Shown in pieces: positions 4,251 to 47,583 of a stretch of DNA of 49,590 bases (its first letter is position 1; the number at the start of each line of letters is the position of its first letter). The stretch is from an uncultured Oscillospiraceae bacterium (GTDB lineage: Bacteria > Bacillota > Clostridia > Oscillospirales > Oscillospiraceae). A program made the position numbers and the translations under genes. The stretch is from assembly GCA_947627285.1 (NCBI GenBank), contig CANQVL010000017.1, forward strand, positions 1 to 49,590, in the 5' to 3' direction. The notes below the pieces were generated by a model. It ran no database searches and was not told the DNA's origin. It saw only the letters and a list, made by a program, of their open reading frames with translations.

Positions 4251-4293
4251 CAACAAAAAAATCTCCGTCCGGTGGACGGAGATTTTTTTGTTG
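4251..4293. terminator. Bidirectional terminator after rpmB; hairpin A of repeat E1
   Basis: A perfect 20-bp stem has a GGT loop with A-rich and T-rich outer arms, so it can terminate on both strands between convergent rpmB and the gene at 4495. It also occupies the first-hairpin position of repeat element E1. Confidence 0.9.
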
Positions 4294-4446
4294 CCGGAAG
4301 GGGGAACGTGCGGAAAAAGCCCGTGAATTCTGCGGAATTCACGGGCTTTTTCCTGCTGTTTTGCTGCGCGCACGCCCCATAGGGGCGCACACTTGCAAAA
4401 CATAAGGTGATTTTTCCGACGCGCATGTCGTCGGAAAAATATTTGA
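4251..4446 (+). repeat. Repeat element E, copy 1
   Basis: This copy runs in A-to-D order on the plus strand. Hairpin A is the rpmB terminator. Then come GGGGAACGTGCG, hairpin B (perfect 19-bp stem 4312-4330/4335-4353, loop TGCG), and hairpin C with outer stem GTTTTGC/GCAAAAC around TGCGCGC, an inner CGCCCC/GGGGCG hairpin and CACACTTGC. Last are ATAAGGTGA and hairpin D (TTTTTCCGACG/CGTCGGAAAAA). A decayed piece may continue to about 4490. It lies between two convergent genes. Confidence 0.8.
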
Positions 4447-4494
4447 ATTTGGGGGATTCACTTTATGTCGGGGGAAAAAATTTAAATTTGGGAG

Positions 4495-5703
4495 TCAATT
4501 GGCTGGTTTGCCGTTTCCGGTGGGGTCTAGGAGGACGGAGTAGTCGCGGATGCAGATCACTATGTCGGGGGCGTACTCACGGATGTACTCGCCCAGCGTT
4601 TTATCATTGTAATACCGCAGGTCCAGAGAGCGCATCTCGTTGAAGCTCTGATAGGCGATGCACTCCACGGCGTTGGTGAAGCTGTCGCCGTATATGAGCA
4701 CGTTGGGAAGCCAGTCCCGGTCCGTGTCGATTACCGTCTCCGGAATGTCGCCGCCCATATAAAATTCATACGTCAGCCACTCCCCCGGGTCTGCCGGCAT
4801 AGCGTAGAGGAAGCTCTCCGTCTCCTGCCCCCGGTCCCGACGGCTGAAGGGGACGTCCAGCTCCGAGGTCATGTACGAAAGCCTTTCCCCGTCGCTCCAC
4901 AGGTTCATGAGCTTTCTCGACCTGGATCCGATAAAGAGGTTGGGAAGCTCGGTGAATGTGACCTCCGACTCCTCCGGCACCGGCATTTGAAGTCCCGTGT
5001 CCGCCATCACCCGCTCCATTATGGCCCGGTAAGCGGCAAACGCCCCCTTGAGCGTGTAGTGGTGGTCAACGGTGGAACCGAACTTCTCCGGCGAGCCAAG
5101 CCCGGCGAACACGTCGCCTATGTCCATATGCCTGACCCCAGCCATATCCAGCGATTCCTCCAGCAGGAGCCGGGACTTAGCGATATACTCTGAATTGTTG
5201 TTCAGATACCAGGGGTATCTGTCCTCAAAATACGTGTACTGACCGGGCACCGCCACAAGGTAGTACGCCGCCCCCACGCTGTCGCAGGCGTCCTTCACCG
5301 ACGACAGATTTTCCGTCATGACGGAGACTGCCTGTGGCAGTTCGTCCATGCTGTACATATCGTAGTCCAGATACGGGAGGAGTATGTCGTCCTGTACCAC
5401 AATATCGTTGACCACGGGCAGGCGCAGGAGCTTGAGGTCGATGAAGGCGTTCGCCTTCAAAAGCGTGTTCCGCCCTGGCGCGTGGTCGGCAAGGTAACTG
5501 TCAAGCTTGCGGAAATACTCGCCGGATTCGGCGCTTTCCACCGTGAGGACCGGCTTTTCCGCCAGGTTCCTGTTCTCAAAGAAGGAAAACGTCTCCCTCT
5601 GCCTCAGGAGCCCCGCGAAAAACAGCACAGCCAAAAATACCGCGAAGGCCGCGATCACGGCGCGATCCGCCGCCCCGGTCCTTTTCCTTTTATTGTCGTC
5701 CAT
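4495..5703 (-). CDS. DHHW-family protein (AlgX/AlgJ-like)
   Basis: This is a membrane-anchored extracytoplasmic protein of 402 residues, with one N-terminal membrane segment at about residues 14-33. It has the family motif DHHYTLKG (213-220) and a GDSFTN block (339-344). These match the Ser-His-Asp acetylesterase-like fold of AlgJ/AlgX and clostridial DHHW proteins. Such proteins work with an MBOAT partner to O-acetylate an exported polysaccharide, and the MBOAT gene is only 14 nt upstream. I chose the ATG at 5703 (GGGGGGCGGAGAA before it) over a longer ORF start that would overlap the MBOAT gene. The polymer modified is unknown. Confidence 0.85.
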   Translation of the reverse strand: MDDNKRKRTGAADRAVIAAFAVFLAVLFFAGLLRQRETFSFFENRNLAEKPVLTVESAESGEYFRKLDSYLADHAPGRNTLLKANAFIDLKLLRLPVVNDIVVQDDILLPYLDYDMYSMDELPQAVSVMTENLSSVKDACDSVGAAYYLVAVPGQYTYFEDRYPWYLNNNSEYIAKSRLLLEESLDMAGVRHMDIGDVFAGLGSPEKFGSTVDHHYTLKGAFAAYRAIMERVMADTGLQMPVPEESEVTFTELPNLFIGSRSRKLMNLWSDGERLSYMTSELDVPFSRRDRGQETESFLYAMPADPGEWLTYEFYMGGDIPETVIDTDRDWLPNVLIYGDSFTNAVECIAYQSFNEMRSLDLRYYNDKTLGEYIREYAPDIVICIRDYSVLLDPTGNGKPAN

Positions 5704-5717
5704 TTCTCCGCCCCCCC

Positions 5718-7127
5718 TCAAAACTGGAAGTAGATGAACGGGTTGAAGCTGCCCGTGGCGAGCTTCATGTAGGACAGCGCCAGCACGCACAGCGCAAGTC
5801 CCGCCGGGGCAAGCTCAAGCAAAAATGCGCGCAGGCCGCCGCTTGTCCGCCTCTCCACCGCGCCGCGAAGGAGATCCTTCAGCGGAAGGGCGGCGACGGA
5901 CCCGAGGATGAGCTGGGGCATATATTCAAGGAGCGTATATACCCCCTCGCCCGCGCCCACGCGGTTCGCCCCGAAAAGGGCGGCGATGTACCTTCCCGCG
6001 GCGGTCACTGAGGGGGCGCGGAAGATTATCCACCCCACCATGACCGCCGCCATAGCGTATATGTGCCGGAGCGCTGAGGGAAGACGCTCCAGCGCCCTTC
6101 CCCAGACGTACCTCTCCCCCGCCAGGAGCAGCAGGAACCAGGCGCCCCAGAGCACAAAGGTCCAGTTTGCCCCGTGCCAGAGCCCCGTAAGCAGCCAAAC
6201 GGCGGCGAGATTCAGAAAATTCCTCACCCTCCCGCGCCGGCTCCCGCCCAGGGGTATGTAGACATAGTCCCGGAACCAGGTGGACAGGGAGATGTGCCAC
6301 CTTCTCCAGAACTCCGTCACGGATTTGGATACGTATGGGTAGTTGAAATTCTCCGGGAACTCAAAGCCGAAGATCCGCCCCAGACCTATCGCCATGTCGG
6401 AGTAGGCGGAGAAGTCAAAGTATATCTGCCCGGTGTACGCAACAATCCCCAGCAGGGCCTGAAGCGCGCCCAGCGTCTCCGGCGCGTGTCCGAAGGCGGC
6501 GTCCGCCGCCTCGCCCAGGGCGTTGGCAAGAAGCATCTTCTTCCCCAGACCGAAGCAGAACCTGACGGCTCCCGAGGCGAATTTCGCCGCCGTCTCGCTC
6601 CTGCCGCGAATATCCGACGCAACGGTGGAATACCTGACGATGGGCCCCGCCACCAGCTGCGGGAACAGCGCCACGTACAGCGCCACGTCAAGTGGGTTTT
6701 TCTGCGCCGGGGAGCTGCCCCTGTACACGTCTATCACATACGACAGCCCCTGGAAGGTGTAAAATGAGATCCCTATGGGCAGTACGATCTCAGGGACCGG
6801 AAGGTGGAGCCCAAGGGCGTTGAGCTGACTTACCGCAAAGCCGAAATACTTAAAGTATCCCAGGAGCCCCAGCCCCGAAACGCACGCCAGGACCACCGCG
6901 CCCCTTCTGACCCACGCCCTCTTTGAAAGCCCCGCCGCCAGCCCGCAGACGTAATTCACCGCCACGCTCGCCAGCAGCAGCGCCAGGTACTCAGGTCCTC
7001 CCCAGCCATAAAATATGAGGCTGAACACCAGAAGCACCGGGTTCCTCAGATCCCTCCTGACGGCGAAATACACAAGCAGCAGCGCCGGCAGGAAGTACAC
7101 GAGAAACGTCACGCTGGAAAAAACCAT
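5718..7127 (-). CDS. MBOAT-family O-acyltransferase (AlgI/DltB-like)
   Basis: This is a polytopic membrane O-acyltransferase of 469 residues. It has FPQLVAGPIVR (155-165), FWRRWHISLSTWFRDYVYIP (273-292) and the catalytic-His block GLWHGANW (316-323), which are diagnostic of the AlgI-type MBOAT family. It would move an acyl group, usually acetyl, across the membrane onto a surface polymer, with the DHHW protein encoded next. No dltA, dltC or dltD is nearby, so D-alanylation is less likely than acetylation. It begins 20 nt after der and shares its strand. Confidence 0.92.
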   Translation of the reverse strand: MVFSSVTFLVYFLPALLLVYFAVRRDLRNPVLLVFSLIFYGWGGPEYLALLLASVAVNYVCGLAAGLSKRAWVRRGAVVLACVSGLGLLGYFKYFGFAVSQLNALGLHLPVPEIVLPIGISFYTFQGLSYVIDVYRGSSPAQKNPLDVALYVALFPQLVAGPIVRYSTVASDIRGRSETAAKFASGAVRFCFGLGKKMLLANALGEAADAAFGHAPETLGALQALLGIVAYTGQIYFDFSAYSDMAIGLGRIFGFEFPENFNYPYVSKSVTEFWRRWHISLSTWFRDYVYIPLGGSRRGRVRNFLNLAAVWLLTGLWHGANWTFVLWGAWFLLLLAGERYVWGRALERLPSALRHIYAMAAVMVGWIIFRAPSVTAAGRYIAALFGANRVGAGEGVYTLLEYMPQLILGSVAALPLKDLLRGAVERRTSGGLRAFLLELAPAGLALCVLALSYMKLATGSFNPFIYFQF

Positions 7128-7147
7128 ATCTTACCCTCTCCCGGACC

Positions 7148-8473
7148 CTATTCCTCCCGCTCGCCGCGCTCACGTATCACAAGCCGTATGGGTGTGCCGG
7201 TGAGGGTGAAGGCAGCGCGGAGCTGATTTTCGATGTAGCGCTGATAGGAGAAGTGGAAAAGCTCGGAGTCGTTGCAGAAGAGCACGAACGTGGGGGGCTT
7301 TACGGATACCTGGGTCATGTAGAATATCTTCAGCCTCCTGCCCTTGTCCGTGGGCGGCTGGACCCGCGCCTGGGCGTCCGCCAGGACGTTATTCAGAACG
7401 CCCGTGGTTATGCGCATGTTCGCCTGCTCGTTGACGGTGTTGGCAAGCTCAAATATTTTGTCCACCCTCTGCCCCGTGAGGGCGGAGACGAAAAGTATCG
7501 GCGCGTAGGGCATGAAGCTGAGGTCCCGCCGTATGTCGGCGCGGAGCCTGTCCATGGTCTTCCCGTCCTTCTCCACCAGGTCCCACTTGTTCACAAGTAT
7601 GACGGACGCCCTGCCCGCCTCGTGCGCCATACCCGCCACCTTTGTGTCCTGCTCGGTGACGCCGTCCCGGGCGTCGATCATTATGAGGCACACGTCGGCG
7701 CGCTCGATGGCAAGCTGGGCGCGCATGACGGAGAATTTCTCCACCCTGTCCTCCACCCTGGACTTCCGGCGTATACCGGCGGTGTCGATGAGCACGTACC
7801 TGCCGAACTCATTTTCAAAGGGCGTGTCCACGGCGTCCCTGGTGGTGCCGGCGACGTCGGATACGATCACCCGCTCCTCACCCAGTATCTTATTTACGAT
7901 GGAGGACTTGCCCACGTTTGGCTTTCCTATGAACGCAAGCTTTATGGCTCCGGCGTCCTCCTCCCCCGCCTCCTCCGGCGGGAAGTGCTTCAGACACTCG
8001 TCCAGCACGTCCCCGGTCCCGTGACCGTGGACCGCCGAAAGAGCTATGGGGTCGCCCAGACCCAGGGAGTAAAACTCGTATATCTCCGGGTCCACGGGGC
8101 CCACGGAGTCCATCTTGTTCACCGCCAGCACCACGGGCTTGCCGCTGCGCTGGAGCATATCCGCCACCTCCTGGTCGGCGGCGGTGACCCCGCTGCGGAT
8201 GTCGCAGACGAAGATTATGACGGTTGCCGAGTCAATGGCGATCATCGCCTGCTCCCGCATGAAGGTCAGTATCTCGCTGTCCGTGGAGGGCTCGATGCCG
8301 CCGGTGTCCACGATGTCAAAGCTCCTGCCCGCCCACTCGCAGGAGGCGTAGAGCCTGTCGCGGGTGACGCCGGGGGTGTCCTCCACGATGGAGAGGCGCT
8401 GACCGGCAAGGCGGTTGAACAAAAGGCTCTTGCCCACGTTGGGCCTTCCGACGATAGCAACTAACGGTCTCAT
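7148..8473 (-). CDS. der: Ribosome biogenesis GTPase Der (EngA)
   Basis: Der is an essential GTPase of 50S subunit assembly with two tandem G domains. The 441-residue protein has P-loops GRPNVGKS (9-16) and GKPNVGKS (183-190), DTPG and DTAG G3 motifs, NKMD and NKWD G4 motifs, and a C-terminal KH-like domain. The first P-loop is followed by Leu where Thr is usual (GKSLLF). AAGGAG lies just before the ATG. Downstream is the MBOAT pair rather than the more usual plsY. Confidence 0.97.
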   Translation of the reverse strand: MRPLVAIVGRPNVGKSLLFNRLAGQRLSIVEDTPGVTRDRLYASCEWAGRSFDIVDTGGIEPSTDSEILTFMREQAMIAIDSATVIIFVCDIRSGVTAADQEVADMLQRSGKPVVLAVNKMDSVGPVDPEIYEFYSLGLGDPIALSAVHGHGTGDVLDECLKHFPPEEAGEEDAGAIKLAFIGKPNVGKSSIVNKILGEERVIVSDVAGTTRDAVDTPFENEFGRYVLIDTAGIRRKSRVEDRVEKFSVMRAQLAIERADVCLIMIDARDGVTEQDTKVAGMAHEAGRASVILVNKWDLVEKDGKTMDRLRADIRRDLSFMPYAPILFVSALTGQRVDKIFELANTVNEQANMRITTGVLNNVLADAQARVQPPTDKGRRLKIFYMTQVSVKPPTFVLFCNDSELFHFSYQRYIENQLRAAFTLTGTPIRLVIRERGEREE

Positions 8474-8488
8474 TTCATTCTCCTTTTA

Positions 8489-9796: not shown

Positions 9797-9832
9797 ACGC
9801 GCACCTCCGCTCCGGAAAATTCGAGGACCCGT

Positions 9833-10051: not shown

Positions 10052-10072
10052 GGAAAACGGCCTCCTTTATCG

Positions 10073-10102
10073 AAAAAGCGGCGGGTGTGCCCCGCCGTTT
10101 TT
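10073..10102 (-). terminator. Terminator after rpmF
   Basis: Read on the minus strand, A-rich bases lead into an ACGGCGGG/CCCGCCG stem with a short loop and then TTTTT. It separates DUF177-rpmF from the downstream DUF6199-like gene. Confidence 0.8.
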
Positions 10103-11948: not shown

Positions 11949-11958
11949 CTATCCCCAA

Positions 11959-12149
11959 TCAAATATTTTTTCGACGGCATGTACGTCGAAAAAATCACCT
12001 TATGTCGCGCAAGTGTGTCGCCTACGGCGACGCGCGCAGCACGACGGCAGGAAAAAATATGTGAATTCCGCAGAATTCACATATTTTTTCTGAACGTTCC
12101 CCCTTTTTTGTCTAAGGAAGGGCACCGCCCTTCCTTAGACAAAAATTTT
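11959..12149 (-). repeat. Repeat element E, copy 2
   Basis: This copy is on the minus strand: hairpin A (GTCTAAGGAAGGGC/GCCCTTCCTTAGAC) touches the 3' end of ppaC and serves as its terminator. Then come hairpin B with loop TGCG, hairpin C with outer stem GTCGTGC/GCGCGAC (one mismatch) and inner GTCGCC/GGCGAC, and hairpin D TTTTTTCGACG/CGTCGAAAAAA. It fills the gap between convergent genes. Confidence 0.8.
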
Positions 12150-13759
12150 TACCCCCACAGCGCCGACAGCATGGGGACCACCTGTTTTTTCCGGCTCATG
12201 ACCCCCGGCAAAAAAGCCTCGGAGTCTGAAAGCTCCACGTTGAACGCCTGGGTGAAGGTGTCCTCACCGCCGAGGCACAGTATCTTGCTCCCCTCGATGA
12301 GCACGTCGGTGAGCATGAGCATCATCATGCTGTACCCGTTTTTCTCCTTGACCTCCCGCATGACCTGAAGAAATTCCTCCTTGCGCTTCATGTGCCGCGC
12401 CGAGTCCATGCAGGTTATCTGGCTTATCCCAAAGGCGTGACCGGCTATGTGGAACTCCTTGAAGTCCGTGAATATCATGTCCCGCACCGGCTTGTCCTCC
12501 GGCGCGGAGGCGGAGAAAATGAACTGCCCCAGCTCCGTAAGGTCCACGTCGGCGATGCTTGCCAGCCTCTCCGCCATTGTCCTGTCCCGCTTTGTGGCTG
12601 TGGGCGACTTGAACATCACGGTGTCGGAGATTATCGCCGCCGCCATGAGCCCCGCCAGCTTCTTTGAGGGCATGAGCCCCCGCTCCTGGTACATCCCCGC
12701 CACGATGGTGCAGGTGGAGCCCACCGGCTCGTTGCGAAAGTATATGGGGTTCTGGGTCTGTATGTCCGCCAAACGGTGATGGTCGATTATCGCCAGCACC
12801 TCCGTCTCGTCAAGTCCGGGGACCGACTGGGACAGCTCGTTGTGGTCCACCAGCACCACCTTTTTCCTTCTGGGCCTTATGAGGTGGAAGCGCGACAGCG
12901 TCCCCACCACCCTGTCGTTCCCGTCAAGGATGGGGTAGCTGCGGTATCTGCTGCGCAGCACAACCTCCTTCACGTCGTCTATGTAGTCGGTTAGGTGGAA
13001 CGCCTCTATGCTCCTGTTGGCGGTAAGCCTCTCCACGGGTATCGCCTGGAATATGCGCCTCACGGCGCGCAGGCTGTCAAAGGGCGTGGAGATCACCGTG
13101 GTGCTCCCCGCCTCCAGGTCCTCCGGAAGCTGGGCGCGGCAAATTATGACGCACCGCACCCCCGCCTTCACCGCCTCCCGCAGTATCTCCGGCTGGTTGC
13201 CGCAGACGAGCACCGTGTCGGGGGACTTGAAGAGCGGCACGTCCGCGCCCAAAGGCAGCGCAGGCACCACCTCGCCGCTGACGGTGTTGGAGATAAGCGG
13301 CCCCTCGCTGAGTATCTGCCCCTCCAGAACGGAGAGTATGTTGAAAAGCGGCACGTCCCTGAGCGTCGGGTCCTCGATGGTGGCGATGTCGTAGGCGGCG
13401 ATGTCCCCGGCGGTCATCATTCCCGCCAAACGCCCCTCGTCGTCGGTTATGGGTATGGCGGAGATGTGCTTGTCCTCCTCCATGGCCGACCACACCCGGT
13501 TCACCGTCACCGCCTTGTTGAGTATGGGCGGCACGTCAAAATCCAGGTCCTGAACCTGTGTGCGCAGGTCCTTTACGTAAAGGGGCGGCTCAAAGCCGAA
13601 GCGCCCCAATATCTTCTGCGTCTCGTCGGAGAGGTGCCCCAGCCTCGCGGCGATGTAACCCCTCTCCCCCGTGGCGCTCTGGAGCGCCGCGTAGCCCAGC
13701 GCCGCCACTATGGAGTCCGTGTCAGGGTTTTTGTGCCCCGTAACGTATATCCGCTCCAA
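12149..13759 (-). CDS. ppaC: Manganese-dependent pyrophosphatase with CBS/DRTGG insert
   Basis: This is a family II inorganic pyrophosphatase of about 536 residues, cleaving PPi in the cytosol. It has an N-terminal DHH domain (GHKNPDTDS, 8-16; metal ligands), then a CBS pair split by a DRTGG domain, then the DHH remainder with DHNELSQS and DHHRLADI and the DHHA2 domain. This is the regulated clostridial form, with CBS domains that bind adenine nucleotides. I place the start at TTG 13759 (GGGAG upstream), since a longer open frame to 13813 runs into the likely -10 TATAGT. It is divergent from recQ. Confidence 0.93.
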   Translation of the reverse strand: MERIYVTGHKNPDTDSIVAALGYAALQSATGERGYIAARLGHLSDETQKILGRFGFEPPLYVKDLRTQVQDLDFDVPPILNKAVTVNRVWSAMEEDKHISAIPITDDEGRLAGMMTAGDIAAYDIATIEDPTLRDVPLFNILSVLEGQILSEGPLISNTVSGEVVPALPLGADVPLFKSPDTVLVCGNQPEILREAVKAGVRCVIICRAQLPEDLEAGSTTVISTPFDSLRAVRRIFQAIPVERLTANRSIEAFHLTDYIDDVKEVVLRSRYRSYPILDGNDRVVGTLSRFHLIRPRRKKVVLVDHNELSQSVPGLDETEVLAIIDHHRLADIQTQNPIYFRNEPVGSTCTIVAGMYQERGLMPSKKLAGLMAAAIISDTVMFKSPTATKRDRTMAERLASIADVDLTELGQFIFSASAPEDKPVRDMIFTDFKEFHIAGHAFGISQITCMDSARHMKRKEEFLQVMREVKEKNGYSMMMLMLTDVLIEGSKILCLGGEDTFTQAFNVELSDSEAFLPGVMSRKKQVVPMLSALWG

Positions 13760-27360: not shown

Positions 27361-28562
27361 AAAAGCGGTTTTTCGCGTTTCTTTTGGCTGTGGCGGCGCT
27401 TCTCTCCGTCACGGGCAACGCCGGGGCGTCCGTTGACGGCCTGCGGCTTGTGTGCCGCCTGCGGGGGGTGTCCTATGAGAGCATAGACGACGCGCTGTCG
27501 TTATATGAGGAGGGGGACATTCTGGAGCTTCTGGTGGAGCTGCACGAGTGCTGTCAATTGGGGGTATATGACGGCGAGATACGCGTCCGGGGCGTTAACG
27601 GCGTCCGGGTGTACGACGACCTCTTTTACGTGGCAAATCACAGTGTGCTGGAGCACCGGGTGGAGGGGGACGTACACATCTTCAAATGCGTTGACCTCAC
27701 CCCCGACCCCTCCTGGCCTGAGGTGATGATAGAGGCCGGGACCGTGCCCTACGGCAGCGTGTGGACCTCCGGCTGTTGGCCCGGGGAGACGGCAAGGGTA
27801 CAGGTGTCCCCGTACCCGGAATGTGAGGTGGTGTCACTCACGGTGCTGGACAGCCGGTACAACGAGATCCCCTCCCGGCGCGTCGAGGGGTCCGACTACG
27901 GAACGGACGTTTACTACGAATTTGTCCTCCCTGCGGAGGATCTGCCCGTAAAGCTCTTCGCCGCCATAAGGCCCACAGGCGAGACGGACGGGGACTGCCC
28001 CGGCAGGTCCTTTACCGACATGAGTGAGGACGCCTGGTATCACATGGCGGTGGACGAGCTGGTGAGGCGGAATATCCTCAGCGGCAAGCCGGGCAGCGCC
28101 GTCGATCCCTACGGGACGCTGAGCCGCGCCGAGGCGGTTACTCTCCTCTACCGGCTCATGGGCTCCCCAGCCGTCGCCTGCTCCCCCGTCTACTCGGACG
28201 TACCGGAGGGAGAGTGGTACGCCGGTCCCGTTATGTGGGCAACGGAAGAGGGCATCGTCAGCGGCGTTGGCGGCGGCCTCTTCGCCCCTGGCGACACGCT
28301 GACCTGGGAACAGCTATGGGTCATGCTATTGCACCTGTCCGGCGACAGGGCGACGGCCTCATGGGGACTGGACACACTGCTCGCCCTGGAGTCCGGGGAG
28401 CTGCATGAGTTCGCCGCCGACGGCTTCACCTGGGCGCGTTCCATAGGCCTGCAAAACTCCTCCCCCGTCCACGGTCTTGCCGTCCCCACCCGCGCCGAGG
28501 CATTTGTAACGGTCTACCTTTATTTAAAACGCAAGCCGCCTGAAGGGCGGCTTGCGTTTTAG
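27357..28562 (+). CDS. Secreted SLH-domain surface protein
   Basis: This 401-residue protein has a signal peptide (MKKRFFAFLLAVAALLSVTG, cleaved near residue 25). An N-terminal region of about 190 residues matches no domain I know. Two clear SLH repeats follow, from FTDMSEDAWY (about 218) and YSDVPEGEWY (about 278), plus a degenerate third near 340-395. SLH repeats bind secondary cell-wall polymers, so it should sit on the surface. It is coupled by ATGA to nth, with which no functional link is obvious. The last codons form half of a terminator hairpin. Confidence 0.85.
   Translation: MKKRFFAFLLAVAALLSVTGNAGASVDGLRLVCRLRGVSYESIDDALSLYEEGDILELLVELHECCQLGVYDGEIRVRGVNGVRVYDDLFYVANHSVLEHRVEGDVHIFKCVDLTPDPSWPEVMIEAGTVPYGSVWTSGCWPGETARVQVSPYPECEVVSLTVLDSRYNEIPSRRVEGSDYGTDVYYEFVLPAEDLPVKLFAAIRPTGETDGDCPGRSFTDMSEDAWYHMAVDELVRRNILSGKPGSAVDPYGTLSRAEAVTLLYRLMGSPAVACSPVYSDVPEGEWYAGPVMWATEEGIVSGVGGGLFAPGDTLTWEQLWVMLLHLSGDRATASWGLDTLLALESGELHEFAADGFTWARSIGLQNSSPVHGLAVPTRAEAFVTVYLYLKRKPPEGRLAF
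28526..28560 (+). terminator. Terminator built into the end of the SLH gene
   Basis: AAAACGCAAGCCGCC/GGCGGCTTGCGTTTT, a perfect 15-bp stem, ends two bases before the end of the stop codon. A close relative lies at 28765-28798. Confidence 0.85.
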
Positions 28563-28746
28563 CTTGTCAAAAAAGGGCTGTGCCCTTTTTTGACAAAGGG
28601 GATACGTTCAGAAAATTTCCGTGAATTTTGCGAAATTCACGGAAATTTTCCTGCCGTCGCGCTGCGCGCACCGCCAAAGGCGGCACACTTGCGCGACATA
28701 AGGTAATTTTTCCGACGTACACGCCGCCGGAAAAATATTTGATCTT
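28563..28746 (+). repeat. Repeat element E, copy 3
   Basis: Plus orientation, starting at the SLH stop. Hairpin A is TTGTCAAAAAAGGGC/GCCCTTTTTTGACAA; hairpin B has loop TGCG; hairpin C has outer stem GTCGCGC/GCGCGAC and inner CCGCC/GGCGG; hairpin D is TTTTTCCG/CGGAAAAA. The copy is flanked by two near-identical terminator hairpins (28526-28560, 28765-28798). Confidence 0.8.
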
Positions 28747-28764
28747 GAGTTTTTTGACAGTCTC

Positions 28765-28798
28765 AAACGTAAGCCGCCCGAGGGACGGCTTGCGTTTT
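28765..28798 (-). terminator. Terminator after rqcH
   Basis: Imperfect AAACGTAAGCCGCC/GACGGCTTGCGTTT stem, 26 nt past the rqcH stop on the minus strand. It resembles the SLH-gene terminator on the other side of repeat E3. Confidence 0.65.
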
Positions 28799-28823
28799 AA
28801 GGGACCGGGAGGTTCGGCCTTAT

Positions 28824-33311: not shown

Positions 33312-35209
33312 TGCCCCCTGTGAGAATGAGAGGCAACGGTCGAAAGGCCCGCAGCCCCAAGAAGACGCTTTTGCGGCTTTTGGGTTACATGAAGAAGTAC
33401 ATACCCATCCTCGTCATCGTCCTTGTCTGCATCACCGTCACCGCCTACGCCCAGACCCGCAGCTCCACGGTCCTGGGGGATCTGGTGGACGGCTACCTGC
33501 TGCCCATGGTGGAGTCGGGGAACGCCGACTTCCACGCCATCGCCATCTTCCTTGTGAAGATCGCCGCCACCTTGGTGGTGGGCATCTTCTGCGCGTGGCT
33601 CTATAACTTCCTGATGGTCTCCGTTGCCCAGGGCACGCAGAAGGTCATAAGGGACGAGATGTTCACCAAGATGCAAAAGCTGCCGCTTCGGTATTTTGAC
33701 CAGAACACCGCCGGCAACATCATGTCCCGCTACACCAGCGACATCGACACCCTGCGGCAGATGGTGTCCCAGTCCATACCCCAGTGCGCCTCCTCCATCA
33801 TCACCCTAATCGTGGTGACGGTGAAGCTTATCACCACCTCCTGGGTCCTGTGCATCGTCATGGTGTTCACCGTATTCGCCATCGTCATGGTGACAAAGTT
33901 CGTGGTGGGACGCTCCGGGAAATACTTTTTGGAGCAGCAGCAGGCGTTGGGCCGCGTCAACGGCTACGTGGAGGAGCTCATCAACGGTCAGCGGGTGGTG
34001 AAGGTCTTTAATCACGAGGACACCTGCAAGCGTGAATTCGACGAGCTCAACGACGAGCTCTGCCGCAACGCCTACACCGCCGGCGCCTACGCCAACGCCA
34101 TGGGCCCCATCAACAACAACTTGGGCTACGTCCAGTACGCCATCCTCGCCGTGGTGGGCGGCCTTCTGGCGGTGGCCTCCGGCGGGAAGCTTTTGGGACT
34201 GGGGGCGCTCATGAACTTCATGATCCTCTCCCGCACCTTCAATATGCCCATCGCGCAGATCTCCAACCAGTTAAACGCCATCGTCCTGTCCCTCGCCGGC
34301 GCCGAGCGCATCTTTGACCTGATGGACGAAAAGCCCGAGGTGGACGACGGCTACGTCACGCTGGTGAACGCCGAAATCGACCCTGACGGAACCGTCCACG
34401 AGAGCGAAAAGCGCACAGGCCGCTGGGCGTGGAAGCACCCCCATCAGGCGGACGGAACGGTCACCTACACCGAGCTGCGCGGAGACATAACCATGGACAG
34501 CGTGGACTTCAGCTACGTGCCGGATAAGCAGATACTCTACGACATATCCCTCTACGCAAAGCCGGGCCAGAAGCTGGCGTTCGTGGGAGCCACCGGCGCC
34601 GGTAAGACCACCATCACCAACCTCATAAACCGCTTTTACGACATCGAGGACGGGAAGATACGCTACGACGGCATAAACATCAACAAGATCAAAAAGGCGG
34701 ACCTGCGCCGCTCCCTGGGCATAGTGCTCCAGGACGTGAACCTGTTCACCGGCACCGTCATGGATAACATACGCTACGGAAAGCTGGACGCCACCGACGA
34801 GGAGTGCATCGAGGCGGCGAAGCTCGCCAACGCCCACGACTTCATAACCCGCCTGCCGGAGGGCTACGACACCATGCTCACCAACAACGGCGCGCGCCTT
34901 TCTCAGGGGCAGAGGCAGCTCATATCCATCGCCCGCGCCGCCGTCGCCGACCCGCCGGTGATGATCCTGGACGAGGCCACCAGCTCCATCGACACCCGCA
35001 CAGAGGCGCTGGTGCAAAGGGGCATGGACCGCCTCATGGAGGGCAGGACAGTGTTCGTCATCGCCCACCGCCTCTCCACCGTCATGAACTCCGACGCCAT
35101 CATGGTCCTGGACCACGGACACATCATCGAACGCGGCACCCACGAACAGCTCATAGCCCAAAAGGGCACGTACTATCAGCTGTATACGGGGGCGTTCGAG
35201 CTGGAGTGA
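33311..35209 (+). CDS. ABC exporter, subunit B with intact Walker B
   Basis: This is the partner half-transporter, 632 residues. Walker A is GATGAGKTT (about 426), the signature is LSQGQ (about 530, not LSGGQ) and Walker B is MILDEATSSID (about 551) with the catalytic Glu. Its altered signature would face subunit A's altered Walker B, making one inactive site and one active site. A loop of about 40 residues before the nucleotide-binding domain (near 345-395) is typical of this subfamily. It is translationally coupled to subunit A. Confidence 0.93.
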   Translation: MPPVRMRGNGRKARSPKKTLLRLLGYMKKYIPILVIVLVCITVTAYAQTRSSTVLGDLVDGYLLPMVESGNADFHAIAIFLVKIAATLVVGIFCAWLYNFLMVSVAQGTQKVIRDEMFTKMQKLPLRYFDQNTAGNIMSRYTSDIDTLRQMVSQSIPQCASSIITLIVVTVKLITTSWVLCIVMVFTVFAIVMVTKFVVGRSGKYFLEQQQALGRVNGYVEELINGQRVVKVFNHEDTCKREFDELNDELCRNAYTAGAYANAMGPINNNLGYVQYAILAVVGGLLAVASGGKLLGLGALMNFMILSRTFNMPIAQISNQLNAIVLSLAGAERIFDLMDEKPEVDDGYVTLVNAEIDPDGTVHESEKRTGRWAWKHPHQADGTVTYTELRGDITMDSVDFSYVPDKQILYDISLYAKPGQKLAFVGATGAGKTTITNLINRFYDIEDGKIRYDGININKIKKADLRRSLGIVLQDVNLFTGTVMDNIRYGKLDATDEECIEAAKLANAHDFITRLPEGYDTMLTNNGARLSQGQRQLISIARAAVADPPVMILDEATSSIDTRTEALVQRGMDRLMEGRTVFVIAHRLSTVMNSDAIMVLDHGHIIERGTHEQLIAQKGTYYQLYTGAFELE

Positions 35210-35212
35210 GCT

Positions 35213-35451
35213 GGCTTTGAAGCCCCGCTTTGCGGGGCTTCAAATGCCAATAGGAGACGTGCGAAAAAATTTCTGGAAATGTCTGCGGACATTTCCAGAA
35301 ATTTTTTCTGCTGTTTTGCTGCGCGCGCCGCCGTAAGCGGCACACTTGCAAAACATAAGGTGATTTTTCCGACGTACATGCCGCCGGAAAAATATTGAAT
35401 TTTAAGTTTTTTGTAATTTGTCCGACGCGCATGTCGTCGGAAAAATATTTT
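35213..35451 (+). repeat. Repeat element E, copy 4, with extra D hairpin
   Basis: Plus orientation, against the ABC operon 3' end. Hairpin A is TTGAAGCCCC/GGGGCTTCAA and doubles as the operon terminator; hairpin B has a long stem with loop TGCG; hairpin C has outer stem GTTTTGC/GCAAAAC and inner GCCGC/GCGGC; hairpin D is TTTTTCCG/CGGAAAAA. A second D-type hairpin at 35419-35449 matches copy 1's D and looks like the remnant of another element. Confidence 0.8.
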
Positions 35452-35496
35452 ATTGGGGGGTTGCGGGGTGGATAGGTTGTGGCAGAATGGGGGTAT

Positions 35497-39305: not shown

Positions 39306-39337
39306 CATATAATGTACCGTAAACCTCAATCCCAATA

Positions 39338-39528
39338 ATCAAATATTTTTTCGACGGAATGTACGTCGAAAAAATCACCTTGTGTCGCGCAAGTGTGTGA
39401 CCCTTTTTGGGTCACGCGCGCCGCGCGACAGCAGGAAAAAATTTATGAATTTCGCAAAATTCATAAATTTTTTCCGCACGCATCCCATTGTTAAAAAAGG
39501 GCAAAGCCCTTTTTTAACAAATTTAATT
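39338..39528 (-). repeat. Repeat element E, copy 5
   Basis: Minus orientation, between hom and lysC. Hairpin A (TTGTTAAAAAAGGGC/GCCCTTTTTTAACAA) is next to lysC; hairpin B has loop TGCG; hairpin C has a perfect outer GTCGCGC/GCGCGAC stem and inner GTGACCC/GGGTCAC; hairpin D TTTTTTCGAC/GTCGAAAAAA is next to hom. It is the one copy between two co-directional plus-strand genes, and it runs opposite to them. Confidence 0.8.
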
Positions 39529-42336: not shown

Positions 42337-42340
42337 AAAT

Positions 42341-42383
42341 GCCTCCGCCGCACCGCCAAACCTGTGCGCCGGGGGCATTATTT
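42341..42383. terminator. Terminator between convergent genes
   Basis: AATGCCTCCGCCGCAC pairs imperfectly with GTGCGCCGGGGGCATT, followed by ATTTTG. It lies between the MATE gene and the flavin reductase gene. Confidence 0.65.
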
Positions 42384-42404
42384 TGACCTGAAAAAGGCTT
42401 TACC

Positions 42405-43055
42405 TCAATACTCCGCGTAATCTCTCAGCTTTTTGACTATCCCCACGTAATCGTGGACGGTGCCGCCGAAGCTCTCCGGGTCCACGGGGTGATGGATGTT
42501 GTAAAGTATCCCCGTCTCCCCCGTCCTGCCCAGGTCGTTTTCGTCCAGGCGCCTTTCATCAATGTGGACGTTGACTATCTCAAGGCACGCCAAAACGTAG
42601 TCGTCCCCGGGCGCTATCTCCTTCTCCCACCTGTGCCGGCACTCCAGGTTCATAAAGCATTCGTCGATGAGAGGCGCGTTCACCTTATCCGCCCTTACCG
42701 GCGTCAGACCGGCGGCTTTGATCTCATCCGTATCAAAGCCGTTGTTTTTTACGGTGGACATACACCTGTCGTACAGCTCCGCGGACATGAAATTGATGAC
42801 AGCGTCGCCGTTTTCATGGAGCGTACCGTATAGGTGCCCGTATTTGCTGACGGCGGAGACGATCGCAAAATACCCGTTTTTCCCGCCGGTAAAGGTCGTC
42901 CAGGACTGCATACACGCGTTTGACAGACCGTTGCTTTTGTACGAGGTCATTATATACAGCGGCGACGGGACGGATACGACAAATTCCATCCAATTGAACC
43001 CGTACAGCTCCATGTCCCTCATCGTCTCCGGCAGAGCGCCGTAGGTCCTTTTCAT
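42405..43055 (-). CDS. Flavin reductase-like FMN-binding protein
   Basis: This 216-residue protein resembles the flavin-reductase-like split-barrel family. It has the N-terminal VSVPSPLYIMTSYKSNGLSNACMQSW (FMN-site region) and a conserved NFMSAELYDRC. Such proteins bind FMN and reduce it with NAD(P)H or act as small flavoproteins. It begins 3 nt after the ppk1 stop, so it is the second cistron with ppk1, with no obvious metabolic link. Confidence 0.8.
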   Translation of the reverse strand: MKRTYGALPETMRDMELYGFNWMEFVVSVPSPLYIMTSYKSNGLSNACMQSWTTFTGGKNGYFAIVSAVSKYGHLYGTLHENGDAVINFMSAELYDRCMSTVKNNGFDTDEIKAAGLTPVRADKVNAPLIDECFMNLECRHRWEKEIAPGDDYVLACLEIVNVHIDERRLDENDLGRTGETGILYNIHHPVDPESFGGTVHDYVGIVKKLRDYAEY

Positions 43056-43058
43056 TTT

Positions 43059-45353
43059 TTAATTCCTCCCCAGGAGCCTTGCCAGGAGCCTCCTGACCTT
43101 CCCCGGCTCGGGCTTGGGGAGCTCCACCGTCACCCTCGGTATGACCTTCAGCGTCTCCGGCGCGTCCTCCCCGCGCGTCTCCTCCGGGACGGCGGGGCCC
43201 GCCGGTGTCTCCGCCTCCGCCGGGGCGTCCTGCGCGCTTTCCGTCCGCGCATCCTCCGGCTCGCCGCCCATTCTCCACTCCCCGGCGTAAGCCTGCTCGT
43301 AGAACAGCTCCTGGGAGTTGAGCTCCGTCTCCCCCTGGTTTACATAATTATACTTCCCCTGAGCGTCCTCCCGCCTGAGCTTCACGTTGTCCAGAAGCTG
43401 CGTCTCAAACATTTTTACGATGTGTCCGGCTATCGCCCGGTCGTAAACGGGAGCCGCCACCTCCACGCGCCTTTGGGTGTTGCGCGTCATGAAGTCGGCT
43501 GAGGATATGTACACCCTCCTGCGCTCCCCCATTCCGATTATGTAAACCCGCGAGTGCTCCAGGAACCTGCCCACAACGGAGTATACGTTTATGTTGTCCG
43601 TAGCGCCCGGTATCCCCGGCACAAGACAGCATATTCCCCTGACGATAAGGTCAATTTTGACCCCCGCCCTGCCTGCCTCCGCCAGCTTTTCGATGAGCCC
43701 CTTGTCCGTGAGCCCGTTGAGCTTGAAGCCCAGGTACGAGGGGAGCCCCTCCCGCGCCTTTTCGATCTCGCCGTCTATCATCTCAAGTATGCGGCCGCGA
43801 AGGCACGCCGGAGCCACCAGCAGGAATTTGGTGTCCTCCACTATCTCCCCCATGGAGAGGCAGTTGAACACCCTCGCCGCCTCCTCGCCTATCTCGCGGT
43901 TCGCGGTCATAAGGGCGTAGTCGGTGTAGAGCCTCACGGTGTCCTCGTTGTAGTTGCCCGTGCCGATCTGGGTGATGTACTCAATCTCCCCCTCATGGCG
44001 GCGGGTTATAAGCAGAAGCTTTGAGTGGACCTTCATTCTGTCAAGGCCGTAGATCACCCTGCACCCCGCCTGCTCCAGAACGCGGGACCAGCCGATGTTG
44101 TTCTCCTCGTCGAACCTGGCGCGAAGCTCCACCAGCACCACGACCTCCTTGCCGTTCTCGGCGGCGTCGCACAGCGCCTCAACTATCTTGCTGTTGTGGG
44201 CGACGCGGTAGAGGGTCATCTTTATAGACACCACCTCCGGGTCCTGCCCCGCCTCGTTGAGGAGCCTCTGGAATGGTCGTATGGACTCGTAGGGGTAGGA
44301 CAGCAGCACGTCCCGCTCCCTTATCTGCGGCGCCATGGGGCGTCCCGCGTCGATATTCACGCTGTTTTGCGGCACGAGGCGCTTATAGAAAAGCTCCGTC
44401 TTGTCCCTGAGCACGTCCCGCAAAAAGCCCATAAAGGTGAGGTCCAGCGGTATCCCGCTCTGGAACATGTGCCTTTTGGAAAGCCCCAGGTACTCCCTGA
44501 GCGCCGAGCGCACGTCGTCGTCAAGCCGCCCGTTGTAGTCGAGGCGCACCGGCTCCCGGCGCGTCCTGCTGCGGACAAGCTTCTCCATGGTCTTGCGGTA
44601 GTCCTCGGCTGACTGGAAATCCGCCTCCGCGCCTGTGTCCTCCACGTCTATGTCCGCGTTGCGCACAAGCCTGATGAGCACCGAGCTCTCCACCCGGTAG
44701 CGGTCAAATACCCTGGGCAGGAAGTGCCTGATGAGGTCCTCCATCAAAACGAACCTCAACCCCTCCCCGGGAAGCGGCACAAGCCTCCTCAGCCCCCCGT
44801 CGCCGCAGGGGACGATCCCCAGGCGCGGGCTCCCGCTCTTTGTGGTGAGCTTCGCCACGGCGTAGGTGGTCTTGTTCTTCAAAAACGGGAAGGGCTGCTT
44901 GCGCCCGATTATCTGCGGCGACAGCACCGGCAGCACGTCCGAGACAAAATACTTCTCCAGATACGCCTGGGCCTTGTCCTGGAGGCTGACGAACCGCACA
45001 AGCTCCACCCCGTAGTCGTGAAGGCTCACGAAAAGGTCACGGAAAATGGCGTCGCGCTTTTCCAGCAGCTCCCCCGTGCGGCTGAGGACGGACTTTATCT
45101 GCTGCGCCGAGGTGAGCCCCAGCTTGTCGTCGGTCACACCGTCCTTGAGCGTGTCCACCAGCGTCCCCACCCGGACCATGTAAAACTCGTCCAGGTTCGA
45201 CTGGAAGATGGAGAGGAAATTGAGCCTCTCCCCCAGGGGGTTGCGGGCGTCCCGCGCCTCCTCCAGCACCCTCTCGTTGAAGGACAGCCAGGAGAGCTCC
45301 CTGTTCTCAAAATACCCCGGCTCCTCCGCCGTATTTATGTTTTTCTCGTCCAT
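43059..45353 (-). CDS. ppk1: Polyphosphate kinase 1 with C-terminal extension
   Basis: Ppk1 makes and degrades polyphosphate using ATP. The 764-residue protein has the N-terminal ENRELSWLSFNERVLEEA, the catalytic His in KVHSKLLLI (about 441), and the IGTGNYNE block, all standard. A tail of about 75 residues after the last domain is unusual: an acidic, Ala/Pro/Glu-rich linker ends in the basic GKVRRLLARLLGRN. The start is ATG 45353 with GATGAGG before it; an ATG at 45362 is possible. The flavin reductase gene follows 3 nt after the stop. Confidence 0.95.
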   Translation of the reverse strand: MDEKNINTAEEPGYFENRELSWLSFNERVLEEARDARNPLGERLNFLSIFQSNLDEFYMVRVGTLVDTLKDGVTDDKLGLTSAQQIKSVLSRTGELLEKRDAIFRDLFVSLHDYGVELVRFVSLQDKAQAYLEKYFVSDVLPVLSPQIIGRKQPFPFLKNKTTYAVAKLTTKSGSPRLGIVPCGDGGLRRLVPLPGEGLRFVLMEDLIRHFLPRVFDRYRVESSVLIRLVRNADIDVEDTGAEADFQSAEDYRKTMEKLVRSRTRREPVRLDYNGRLDDDVRSALREYLGLSKRHMFQSGIPLDLTFMGFLRDVLRDKTELFYKRLVPQNSVNIDAGRPMAPQIRERDVLLSYPYESIRPFQRLLNEAGQDPEVVSIKMTLYRVAHNSKIVEALCDAAENGKEVVVLVELRARFDEENNIGWSRVLEQAGCRVIYGLDRMKVHSKLLLITRRHEGEIEYITQIGTGNYNEDTVRLYTDYALMTANREIGEEAARVFNCLSMGEIVEDTKFLLVAPACLRGRILEMIDGEIEKAREGLPSYLGFKLNGLTDKGLIEKLAEAGRAGVKIDLIVRGICCLVPGIPGATDNINVYSVVGRFLEHSRVYIIGMGERRRVYISSADFMTRNTQRRVEVAAPVYDRAIAGHIVKMFETQLLDNVKLRREDAQGKYNYVNQGETELNSQELFYEQAYAGEWRMGGEPEDARTESAQDAPAEAETPAGPAVPEETRGEDAPETLKVIPRVTVELPKPEPGKVRRLLARLLGRN

Positions 45354-45392
45354 ATGCCTCATCCCACTTTACAAAAAATAACGGATAGCCCC

Positions 45393-45421
45393 ATTATACT
45401 CCCCGCGCCGCCTTTTTTCCA
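45393..45421 (-). promoter_or_regulatory. ppk1 promoter
   Basis: A perfect TATAAT on the minus strand (45393-45398) lies 17 bp from a weak TGGAAA (45416-45421), so an activator might assist. Confidence 0.55.
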
Positions 45422-45475
45422 CCCCTAAATGACGCCTCGGGAAATTTTTTCCGCGTAAAAATCCGTTCCGCCGCC

Positions 45476-46300
45476 TCAAAGCGCCTCCAGAACAGTTATC
45501 CTCCCGTCCTCCACGGGCAAATTATCCCTGTTCAGCTGTCCCAAACGGCAGGTCTTGCGCGCGCCGTGGTAGTCACTGCCGGCGGACACGTAGAGCCCCC
45601 GCTCCCGCGCAAGCCTTTCAAGGAACAGGCACCTCTCCGGGCTGTACGCCGAGTACCAGCACTCCAGCCCGCCGATCCCGGCGTCCCGAAGCTCCCGTAA
45701 AAGCGTGAAAAGCTCCTCCTCGCCAAGCTCCCGCTTCCCCGTCTCCCCAAAGGGGTGCGCCCACACCGCCACGCCCCCGGAGGCCGTGACAGCCTCTACT
45801 GCGTCGCGCGCCTCAAGCCTGTCGTTTGGCGTTTTACAGCCGTCAAGTATGCCCCGTATCGCCCCGCTCAGACTGCCGGCATACCCGTGCTTCACCAAAA
45901 GCTCCCCCAAATGCGGCTTTCCCGCGCCCGGGAGCCTCCTCAGCGCCTCCAGCTCCTCCGCCGGGAGCGCATATCCCCCCGCCGCGAGAAAAGCTATCCT
46001 CGCCTCCAGCTTCTCCCGCCTCAGCGCCGACGCCTTCTCAAGAAGCGCCGCCATCTTCGGGGCAAGGGGATCAATGCCCAGCCCCAATATGTGGCACTTC
46101 CCCGCGGCGGTCCGCGAGCTCAGCTCCACTCCCGCCACGACCTTTATCCCCCGCGTCCCCCGGAGCCGCCCCGCCCCGGAGACGTTGTCGTGGTCCGTCA
46201 AAGCCAGCACCCCGACTCCCTCCCCGCGCGCCCTTTCCGCCACCTCCTCCGGCGACTCCGTCCCATCAGAAAAATTCGAGTGTGTATGCAAATCGACCAT
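45476..46300 (-). CDS. PHP-domain phosphoesterase (RNase AM/YciV-like)
   Basis: This 274-residue PHP protein has metal-binding motifs DLHTHSNFSDG (3-13), LTDHDN (about 36) and the C-terminal GSDYHG. This type includes 3',5'-nucleotide phosphatases and the 5'-3' exonuclease RNase AM of E. coli. The insert between the first and last motifs matches this family rather than PolX or histidinol phosphatase. It is a single gene on the minus strand after repeat E6. Confidence 0.9.
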   Translation of the reverse strand: MVDLHTHSNFSDGTESPEEVAERARGEGVGVLALTDHDNVSGAGRLRGTRGIKVVAGVELSSRTAAGKCHILGLGIDPLAPKMAALLEKASALRREKLEARIAFLAAGGYALPAEELEALRRLPGAGKPHLGELLVKHGYAGSLSGAIRGILDGCKTPNDRLEARDAVEAVTASGGVAVWAHPFGETGKRELGEEELFTLLRELRDAGIGGLECWYSAYSPERCLFLERLARERGLYVSAGSDYHGARKTCRLGQLNRDNLPVEDGRITVLEAL

Positions 46301-46381
46301 AAAACCCTCCCGACAAAAATTCGGTTACCCGCGAAAATCCGGCGCGGCAAGAAGCCGCGCCGGATCAGTCATAAAACTCAA

Positions 46382-46560
46382 ATCAAATATTTTTCCGGCG
46401 ACATGCGCGTCGGAAAAATCACCTTATGTCGCGCAAGTGTATGACCTTTGGTCATGCGCGCCGCGCGACGGCAGGTGAAATTTTCTGAATTCCGCAGAAT
46501 TCAGAAAATTTCACCGCACGTTCCCCTTGGCATTTGAAGCCCGTAAGGGCTTCAAAGCCA
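46382..46560 (-). repeat. Repeat element E, copy 6
   Basis: Minus orientation, against the 3' end of the SDR gene. Hairpin A (TTGAAGCCC/GGGCTTCAA) serves as its terminator; hairpin B has loop TGCG; hairpin C has outer GTCGCGC/GCGCGAC and inner ATGACC/GGTCAT; hairpin D is TTTTTCCG/CGGAAAAA. Hairpin A closely resembles that of copy 4, including the flanking TTGGCA and GCCAG bases. Confidence 0.8.
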
Positions 46561-46563
46561 GTT

Positions 46564-47364
46564 TTATTCGTTCCCCGGCTGCTTGCCGATGTAAGCCAAA
46601 ATGCCGCCGTCAACGTAGAGGATGTGCCCGTTTACGAAGTCGGAGGCGGGAGACGCCAGGAACACCGCCGGGCCCGCCAGGTCCTCGGCCTCGCCCCAGC
46701 GGTTGGCGGGAGTCTTGGCGCGGATGAACTGGTCAAAGGGGTGCATGGACCCGTCCGCCTGCGGCTCACGCAGCGGCGCGGTCTGGGGAGTGGCTATGTA
46801 GCCGGGCCCAATGCCGTTGCACTGTATGTTGTACTGGCCGTACTCCGAGGCGATGTTCTTTGTGAGCATCTTGAGGCCGCCCTTGGCAGCCGCGTAAGCG
46901 GAGACAGTCTCGCGTCCCAGCTCGCTCATCATGGAGCAGATGTTGATGATCTTGCCGCCGCCCTGCTCGATCATATCGGGAATGACGGCCTTGGACATGA
47001 TGAACGGCCCGTTGAGGTCGATGTCCACCACCTTGCGGAACTGGGCGGCGGTCATGTCGCACATGGGTATGCGCATGATGATGCCGGCGTTGTTCACAAG
47101 GATGTTGATGTGCCCGACCTCCTCGGTGACCTTCTTCACAAGCTCAGCGACAGCCGCCTCGTCAGTGACGTCGGCAACATACCCGTGAGCCTCGATCCCC
47201 GCCTCCTTGTAGGCGGCGATCCCCTTGTCGACCAGCTCCTGCTTGATGTCGTTAAAGACAATGGTGGCGCCGGCAGAGGCCATTCCCTTGGCAATGGCAA
47301 ACCCGATCCCATAAGAAGCACCGGTGATCAGGGCAACCTTACCCTTCAAGCTGAAATCAACCAT
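46564..47364 (-). CDS. SDR-family dehydrogenase (gluconate 5-dehydrogenase-like)
   Basis: This is a 266-residue short-chain dehydrogenase. The NAD(P) motif is TGASYGIG (14-21), then NNAG (91-94), catalytic Ser144, Tyr157 and Lys161, and the C-terminal VNGHILYVDGG. The sequence is closest to gluconate 5-dehydrogenase/IdnO-type enzymes that interconvert gluconate and 5-ketogluconate or act on uronate products. No sugar-acid pathway partner is nearby, so the substrate is only a guess. GGGAGGG precedes the ATG. Confidence 0.88.
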   Translation of the reverse strand: MVDFSLKGKVALITGASYGIGFAIAKGMASAGATIVFNDIKQELVDKGIAAYKEAGIEAHGYVADVTDEAAVAELVKKVTEEVGHINILVNNAGIIMRIPMCDMTAAQFRKVVDIDLNGPFIMSKAVIPDMIEQGGGKIINICSMMSELGRETVSAYAAAKGGLKMLTKNIASEYGQYNIQCNGIGPGYIATPQTAPLREPQADGSMHPFDQFIRAKTPANRWGEAEDLAGPAVFLASPASDFVNGHILYVDGGILAYIGKQPGNE

Positions 47365-47396
47365 AGTAAACCCTCCCGTATTTTCGTTAGTTTTGC

Positions 47397-47450
47397 GGAA
47401 TCATTCCCCGCATAGTGATATAATTATAGCACATATAACCAAATTGTCAA
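47397..47450 (-). promoter_or_regulatory. Promoter of the SDR gene with palindrome
   Basis: On the minus strand there is TTGACA (47445-47450), a 16-bp spacer and TATAAT (47423-47428). The odd palindrome GGAATCATTCC (47397-47407) lies just downstream and may be an operator. Confidence 0.75.
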
Positions 47451-47451
47451 G

Positions 47452-47583
47452 CTTTCAAAAAAGGACTGCGCCCTTTTTTGAAGGGATAACATGCGAAAAA
47501 ATGATTCGGAAATATCAAAATGATTCGGAAATATCTGCGGACATTTCCGAATCATTTTCCCTGCTGTTTTACTGCGCGCACTC
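47452..47583 (+). repeat. Repeat element E, copy 7, truncated
   Basis: Hairpin A (TCAAAAAAGG/CCCTTTTTTGA) and hairpin B with loop TGCG are present, then the copy breaks inside hairpin C after CTGCGCGCA and joins other repeats. A 17-bp piece of B's left arm is duplicated (AATGATTCGGAAATATC at about 47500 and 47519). It lies upstream of the SDR gene and points away from it. Confidence 0.75.

Follow-up and report, generated by a model that had tools for sequence, protein, structure and literature searches.

A family-wide miniature transposon with IS1182-type ends that probably carries a conserved folded RNA

The 49,590-nt stretch of DNA analyzed here (the window; contig CANQVL010000017.1 from an uncultured Oscillospiraceae bacterium) contains several copies of a hairpin-rich element. 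By its sequence features, this element is a miniature transposon (miniature inverted-repeat transposable element, MITE) with terminal inverted repeats of the IS1182 type. In addition, statistical tests show a conserved secondary structure on one of its strands, the one opposite to that on which an initial annotation, made from the letters alone, had described the element; in the following, these are called the folded and the annotated strand. Selection appears to act on this folded single strand, most likely as RNA. Overall, we regard it as probable (about 0.6) that we are dealing with a MITE of family-wide range which has IS1182-type ends and bears a conserved folded RNA approximately 130 nt in length. 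The earlier idea of an RNA element under selection for structure is retained in so far as a folded single strand, most likely RNA, seems to be selected, but the strand is the other one and the element is mobile and no stand-alone RNA gene. From 5' to 3', the folded strand consists of the end, a mini hairpin CUC(RCM)GAG, the hairpins E, D and C, in this genus also B, then hairpin A and the 3' end; hairpin E is missing from the copies of this genus.

Mobile-element traits and relation to the IS1182 family

Like other MITEs, the element is small (approximately 200 nt) and dispersed, and it possesses neither a transposase nor a conserved open reading frame (ORF). Intact copies end in CAGNNTGTC(A/G)AAAAA and in the inverted repeat of this sequence, with decayed ends in many copies. 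Since the ends are of the IS1182 type, an identity with REP/BIME sequences is unlikely. The element is also polymorphic at orthologous sites: the site of copy 5 is without element in four genomes and that of copy 2 in one genome, all of them too diverged for the exact edges to be read. There also exist forms with only hairpins A and D, one of which occupies the site of copy 6 in a sister species (G005). Locus L067 holds a unit of some 40 nt in which the two IS1182-type ends enclose almost nothing and which is followed by a terminator, possibly the smallest form or a remnant.

Many copies are flanked on both sides by the same palindrome of 20-40 bp, which resembles the terminator of the host gene. 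We compared the left with the right flank of each copy, scored against mismatched copies with the 99th percentile as cut-off. Duplicated flanks were found in 8 of 61 copies of the genus (9 of 62 before L032, a slicing artefact, was dropped), in 18 of 49 copies from the wider family, with no clear terminators in L304 and L343, and in 11 of 30 copies from Vescimonas fastidiosa, with L403 being weak. The family set derives from 57 model hits, some of which were removed as duplicates or for short flanks. A target-site duplication is thereby observed, and it is unusual in that a whole terminator hairpin is duplicated.

The ends of the element match those of IS1182-family elements from the same genus. 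Of 60 genomes, 25, among them this one, contained IS1182-family genes in a search with NF033551, ten of them above the curated cut-off. The elements L095, L096, L097 and L099 have the ends CAGNNTGTCAAAAAA and duplicated palindromes on their flanks; L092, from this genome, and L093 possess CAGTCTGTCGACAAACC at one end and CAGACTGTAGACAAACACC at the other, again with duplicated palindromes. In genome G037 (L074), the same right end adjoins an IS1182-type transposase remnant, which was confirmed by NF033551. The insertion sequences (IS) themselves were rejected as carriers of the fold. With R1, a covariance model based on 16 genus copies, matches were obtained in 2 of 30 IS loci and neither of them was inside the IS: L101 holds a full copy of the element directly beside the IS and L095 a weak match at the right junction.

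A conserved fold on the opposite strand

The covariation suspected in the initial annotation is significant and exceeds chance at the level of the genus, at the level of the family and in a tree-aware test. Among the 16 genus copies, 14 of 42 pairs are doubly changed, compared to 7.0 +/- 1.6 in shuffled alignments (0 of 500 shuffles). In 28 family copies aligned by sequence only, 24 of 38 pairs are doubly changed compared to 12.8 +/- 1.9 (0 of 500), where the structure was drawn from the same alignment that was used for the test; slid controls yielded 7-12 doubly changed pairs, and 96.4% of the cells are paired. Since shuffles ignore relatedness, we also ran a tree-aware simulation with our own script, which imitates R-scape and uses an exponential tail fit. 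For this, 81 rows (52 model-aligned family copies and 29 copies from V. fastidiosa; 142 columns) were aligned with MAFFT without structure, and 100 alignments were simulated along the tree. Nine of 9591 column pairs were significant at E < 0.05. Eight of the nine lie in helices E, D and the outer stem of C and consist of at least 95% standard pairs, and the ninth (C-G against G.A) is located at the apex of C. Covariation beyond phylogeny, as expected for a structured RNA, is present in this element.

With regard to the strand, the initial annotation is not borne out. In stems read on the annotated strand, the ratio of A.C to G.T mismatches is 7:1 in the outer C stem, 30:0 in D, where 28 of the 30 fall on one conserved position, and 16:2 in E (43 distinct copies). 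This count is based on 44 rows parsed from 63 loci, nearly all from other genera, after 19 loci had been dropped for pattern mismatch. Such an excess of A.C indicates a fold on the opposite strand, where A.C reads as G.U. The outer C stem of the genus copies leans in the same direction (A.C 16 versus G.T 7). Folding tests point to the same strand: RNAalifold formed 34 pairs at -47.1 kcal/mol on the opposite strand and 29 pairs at -32.6 kcal/mol on the annotated one, and in single-sequence folding the opposite strand was the more stable one for 47 of 52 family copies and, for the C-D part, for 129 of 130 genus copies, compared to 47 of 98 control windows.

The sequences TGCGCGC and CACACTT, which had been described as unpaired, form a G.U-rich helix with each other on the folded strand. 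On the model-fitted alignment, this helix contains a U.G wobble in 51 of 51 and a G.U wobble in 45 of 51 copies, and one position is C-G in 28 and U.G in 23 copies. The CTCG/CTCG apex of many copies turns into tandem G.A on the folded strand. Of 52 copies, 29 have a D loop that begins with A and ends with G, 21 have the reverse, and 2 have G at both ends. Strand-specific wobble pairs, a further characteristic of structured RNA, are therefore found in the element, with the exception of hairpin B. In most V. fastidiosa copies (L393-L422), one position in the middle of the outer C stem shows an A.G or G.A mismatch that switches sides from copy to copy, a possible purine-purine pair.

Hairpin B and the turnover of arms

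Hairpin B had served as the leading case of covariation, and it does not hold this role. In 121 copies that could be parsed out of 228 loose pattern matches, its stems comprise 2190 Watson-Crick cells, and the remaining cells are G.T (27), A.C (34) or other (25), that is, without any asymmetry between G.T and A.C. These 121 copies have 97 distinct left arms. A comparison of orthologous sites between this genome (G000) and the sister species G005, with flanks that are 94-100% identical, revealed that in copies 2 and 4 both arms of A and of B are changed while pairing is kept, and that in copy 5 hairpin B is the same and the outer arm of C is different. Such wholesale replacement makes hairpin B speak for exchange at the DNA level and not for one-by-one compensation, and together with the symmetric mismatches it rules out this hairpin as evidence for RNA. 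From the arms at these sites, the turnover of A and B looks like exchange between copies or re-insertion into hairpins. Among the inspected copies from other genera, hairpin B was not seen.

Abundance and host range

The element is not confined to the window but occurs throughout the genome and in many genomes of the family. R1 yielded 149 matches in this genome at E ≤ 0.001. By a hand count at least 92 of them score at least 75 bits, and this number is a lower bound, since 150 candidates were scored; matches below 68 bits were left uncounted, as they may be chance or other hairpins. Of 60 genomes (this one plus 59 relatives), 22 contained a strict pattern; these 22 belong to one genus, and the 26 genomes from other genera lacked it.

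Beyond the genus, R1 gave weaker matches at E ≤ 0.001 in 52 of 120 family genomes and 49 of 106 genera. The best of these, which were inspected, are true homologs with the same hairpins C and D, and most inspected copies possess, on the annotated strand, an extra hairpin E followed by CTCTGCGAGGC. A second model built from 28 of the other-genus copies (R2) detected the element at E ≤ 1e-5 in 103 of 200 family genomes and 68 of 106 genera. In a class-wide sample, 2 of 291 genomes matched, namely this genome and one other of the same family; the non-matching genomes, among those listed, belong to other families, with 269 rows lying outside the listing.

In V. fastidiosa MM35, a cultured bacterium from the human gut, R2 gave 34 matches on one 861-kb replicon (NZ_AP023416.1), 33 of them with at least 91 bits. 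There is no annotated feature under the best blastn match in this species, in a gene table that is itself incomplete. One matching plasmid record, with 17 places, is also from V. fastidiosa. NZ_AP023416.1 is labeled as a plasmid but carries rpoB, rpoC, recA, secA, tuf and many tRNA ligase genes, so that it looks chromosomal. A weak match (74%, 33% of the query) was seen in the unannotated phage record MT838551.1 at 2166-2247.

The initial annotation called the element unrecognized, and this also applies with regard to Rfam: the window has no match at gathering score, and among 12 loci there were eight low-scoring matches at chance level, none of which reached the gathering score of its family. 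We did not meet such an element in literature searches, although the list of 3161 candidate structured RNAs from human microbiomes in PMC8040213, as far as that source was available, may hold it unnamed.

Gene context

Hairpin A had been placed mostly against the 3' end of a gene. This preference exists but is moderate: in this genome, the A side faces a gene 3' end in 29 of 39 copies with a gene called there, and 20 of 41 copies sit between two gene 3' ends, both by a crude ORF caller. In V. fastidiosa, a gene 3' end lies on the A side in 22 of 32 copies and on the other side in 15 of 32; two of the 34 matches are outside the examined stretches and a small overlapping ORF at copy 376891 was passed over. 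This context is in keeping with an element of gene ends. In 27 of 51 family copies, a terminator-like hairpin follows within 90 nt on the 3' side of the motif, compared to 6 of 51 controls. Hairpin A may be the 3' intrinsic terminator of the folded strand, and it looks bidirectional in this function. The simple notion that the folded strand is the 3' untranslated region of a neighboring gene was dismissed, as the orientation of the genes does not support it.

Copies in the window

Of the seven copies reported initially, six are essentially complete and have the described plan, with full-length R1 matches in the window (C17), whereas the seventh is truncated and has no listed R1 match. The folded strand is the minus strand in copy 1 (4243-4455, model core 4307-4445), copy 3 (28562-28764, core 28605-28741) and copy 4 (35206-35412, core 35258-35398) and the plus strand in copy 2 (11950-12152, core 11960-12096), copy 5 (39330-39520, core 39340-39480), which is situated upstream of the gene for aspartate kinase, and copy 6 (46372-46560, core 46384-46520). 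Copy 3 is complete, with GCTTGTCAAAAAAG as left and GTTTTTTGACAGTCTC as right end, and the flank test identified its duplicated 35-bp target: the host terminator hairpin is present on the left at 28527-28561 and on the right at 28765-28799, and both are 89% identical. Directly after copy 4, there is a second hairpin-D unit on the minus strand (35413-35460), which is 88% identical to the D unit of copy 1 and is probably the remnant of an older copy; the sister species has a single D at this site. Copy 7 (47450-47581, minus strand) consists of A, B and the first bases of C, where it is cut and another dispersed repeat follows, so that a complete C and D are lacking.

Other details of the earlier description could be confirmed. 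The TGCG loop of hairpin B is present in all seven copies, and the outer C stems are as described, the mismatch in copy 2 being T.G. The conserved strings recur with small variation: copies 5 and 6 have GGCGCGC, copy 6 also has TACACTTGC, and the variants of copies 3 and 5 are ATAAGGTAA and ACAAGGTGA, respectively. The core pattern TGCGCGC-N-CACACTTGC occurs four times exactly in the window versus zero times in 100 dinucleotide shuffles, and 50 times in the whole genome versus zero times for the reversed pattern.

The repeat that interrupts copy 7 belongs to a second dispersed family (CTCGTCGTCGC..CTTAACCTCGCC..CTCAGGCG..), located at 47582-47761, 49207-49236, 49265-49302 and 49384-49421. Further occurrences are at L020 and, in G005, within hairpin C of the elements that correspond to copies 2, 4 and 5; palindromes within the hairpin element may serve as insertion targets. 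A further repeat of 96 nt, with inverted repeats of its own, is present at 1-96 and 47825-47920 (93% identical). At L007, two hairpin-A units lie nested or in tandem ahead of hairpin B, as if one end had inserted into another.

Proposed mechanism and competing explanations

The features described above can be combined in the following model. The element would be moved in trans by an IS1182-family transposase and joined to the 5' feet of an extruded terminator hairpin, and subsequent repair would copy the hairpin, which corresponds to pathway b of the IS1272 model. The folded strand would then act as an RNA with hairpin A as its intrinsic terminator and the C-D-E fold as a module that binds a protein or another RNA. 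Since hairpin A looks bidirectional, it might also provide the gene with the disrupted terminator with termination again, so that insertions would be kept harmless and copies would accumulate at gene ends. Turnover of the A and B arms would result from copies exchanging with one another or from recurrent insertion into hairpins.

Several observations weigh against this model of a MITE with a folded RNA. The majority of copies have no recognizable duplication. The link to the insertion sequences consists in the likeness of ends and targets only, the fold was inside none of the 30 IS loci, and G005, a draft genome, has 48 strict copies yet no IS1182 match. By the rule used, 24 of 51 family copies have no terminator-like hairpin. 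Of 19 tandem gene pairs in V. fastidiosa, 13 have the folded strand antisense to both genes, so that a transcript would need its own start, and no conserved promoter was recognized by eye, a promoter scan not having been made. This orientation of the genes and the lack of a recognized promoter are the main weakness of the RNA reading.

The lack of a recognized promoter favors an explanation in which the mobile element is unchanged but its fold works as single-stranded or cruciform DNA, for instance as an internal transposase site. Integron attC sites likewise function through a single folded strand. In line with this explanation, the element is mobile, DNA hairpins are its targets, the arms of D resemble the element's own ends in inverted order, and G.T is better tolerated than A.C in DNA, so that wobble in single-stranded DNA could account for part of the strand signal. 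However, the conserved U.G and G.U pairs, the switches from C-G to U.G and the purine-purine bases of the D loop are typical of RNA, and the A+D-only forms, whose existence might otherwise fit a DNA function, suggest that C and E are dispensable for insertion. We judge this explanation to be unlikely. It is improbable that the element is a mobile bidirectional terminator only, with its hairpins maintained for ending transcription both ways and all other conservation resulting from shared ancestry. The look of hairpin A and the position of copies at gene ends would agree with this, but in D the T run is on the 5' side and the A run on the 3' side, an arrangement that is no terminator on either strand, the tree-aware covariation falls in E, D and the outer C stem, and the wobble asymmetry outside A is one-sided.

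This one-sidedness of C, D and E is also left unexplained if palindromes are simply kept up by DNA repair or gene conversion without selection on structure, as are the conserved non-palindromic U.G helices and the family-wide covariation next to conserved loops. The symmetric mismatches of hairpin B and the replaced arms of A and B are what such upkeep would produce, and for the element as a whole we consider it slightly less probable still. Hardly any credence can be given to a small protein whose reading frame would start at the RTG of the folded strand's D loop. The RTG is conserved and the first 15 or so codons are alike, but they are so because the nucleotides are conserved; thereafter the frames diverge, stops occur as early as codon 8, and the median open length is 57 codons compared to 45 and 40.5 in the other frames (48 copies). 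This ORF was rejected on account of the diverging frames and early stops. The group II intron-like start (GTGCG) was also set aside, in view of a length of about 200 nt with terminal inverted repeats and without a search for intron domains.

Going beyond the favored model of a MITE with a folded RNA, one could assume a mobile RNA gene, in which an IS1182-type MITE spreads a trans-acting or protein-binding RNA family-wide, in tens of copies per genome, by way of terminators. This is conceivable but tentative. If it were true, the C-D-E RNA would owe its preservation over family-level divergence to a function for the element or for the host, and the element would land in terminators and bring its own.

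Comparison with known systems

Roughly half of the sampled genomes in this family of gut bacteria possess the unannotated structured element, which often reaches tens of copies per genome and should be considered when operons and terminators are annotated there. If the fold is RNA, this is a well-supported case of a mobile element that spreads a conserved RNA fold, and its function is directly testable. For IS1182-type transposition, a pathway with stem-loop duplication has been proposed, and the duplicated terminator hairpins provide evidence of it from nature.

Most similar among known systems are IS1182-family elements. According to PMC5678879, IS1272 of this family targets stem-loops, often just downstream of genes, and replaces them; the targets are shared by our element, but IS1272 itself replaces the target hairpin without duplication, whereas here the hairpin is often duplicated. 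IS1182-family elements of this genus have the ends CAGNNTGTC.AMAAA, like those of the element. In contrast to them, the element has no transposase and is only about 200 nt long, and its conserved internal fold is absent from the IS1182 elements examined.

Modular hairpin blocks make up the BOX elements. SPRITE and BOX of Streptococcus pneumoniae, which are named in PMC10969869, share with our element that they are mobile repeats with terminator-like hairpins and modular hairpin blocks; they are from another lineage and, in the part of that review available, no conserved C-D-E fold is reported for them. Bacterial MITEs with stem-loop transcripts as such are known (PMC10969869).

Dispersed elements of other bacteria provide a further comparison. 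ERIC, NEMIS/Correia and QMITE are small, non-coding, dispersed and hairpin-bearing. They share with the element its small size, the lack of coding capacity, intergenic dispersal, terminal inverted repeats and stable hairpins. The distinction from them, with sequences compared via Rfam only, lies in what is unusual about the element in general: its family-wide range, its tree-aware covariation, wobble pairs on one strand and the duplicated terminator hairpins.

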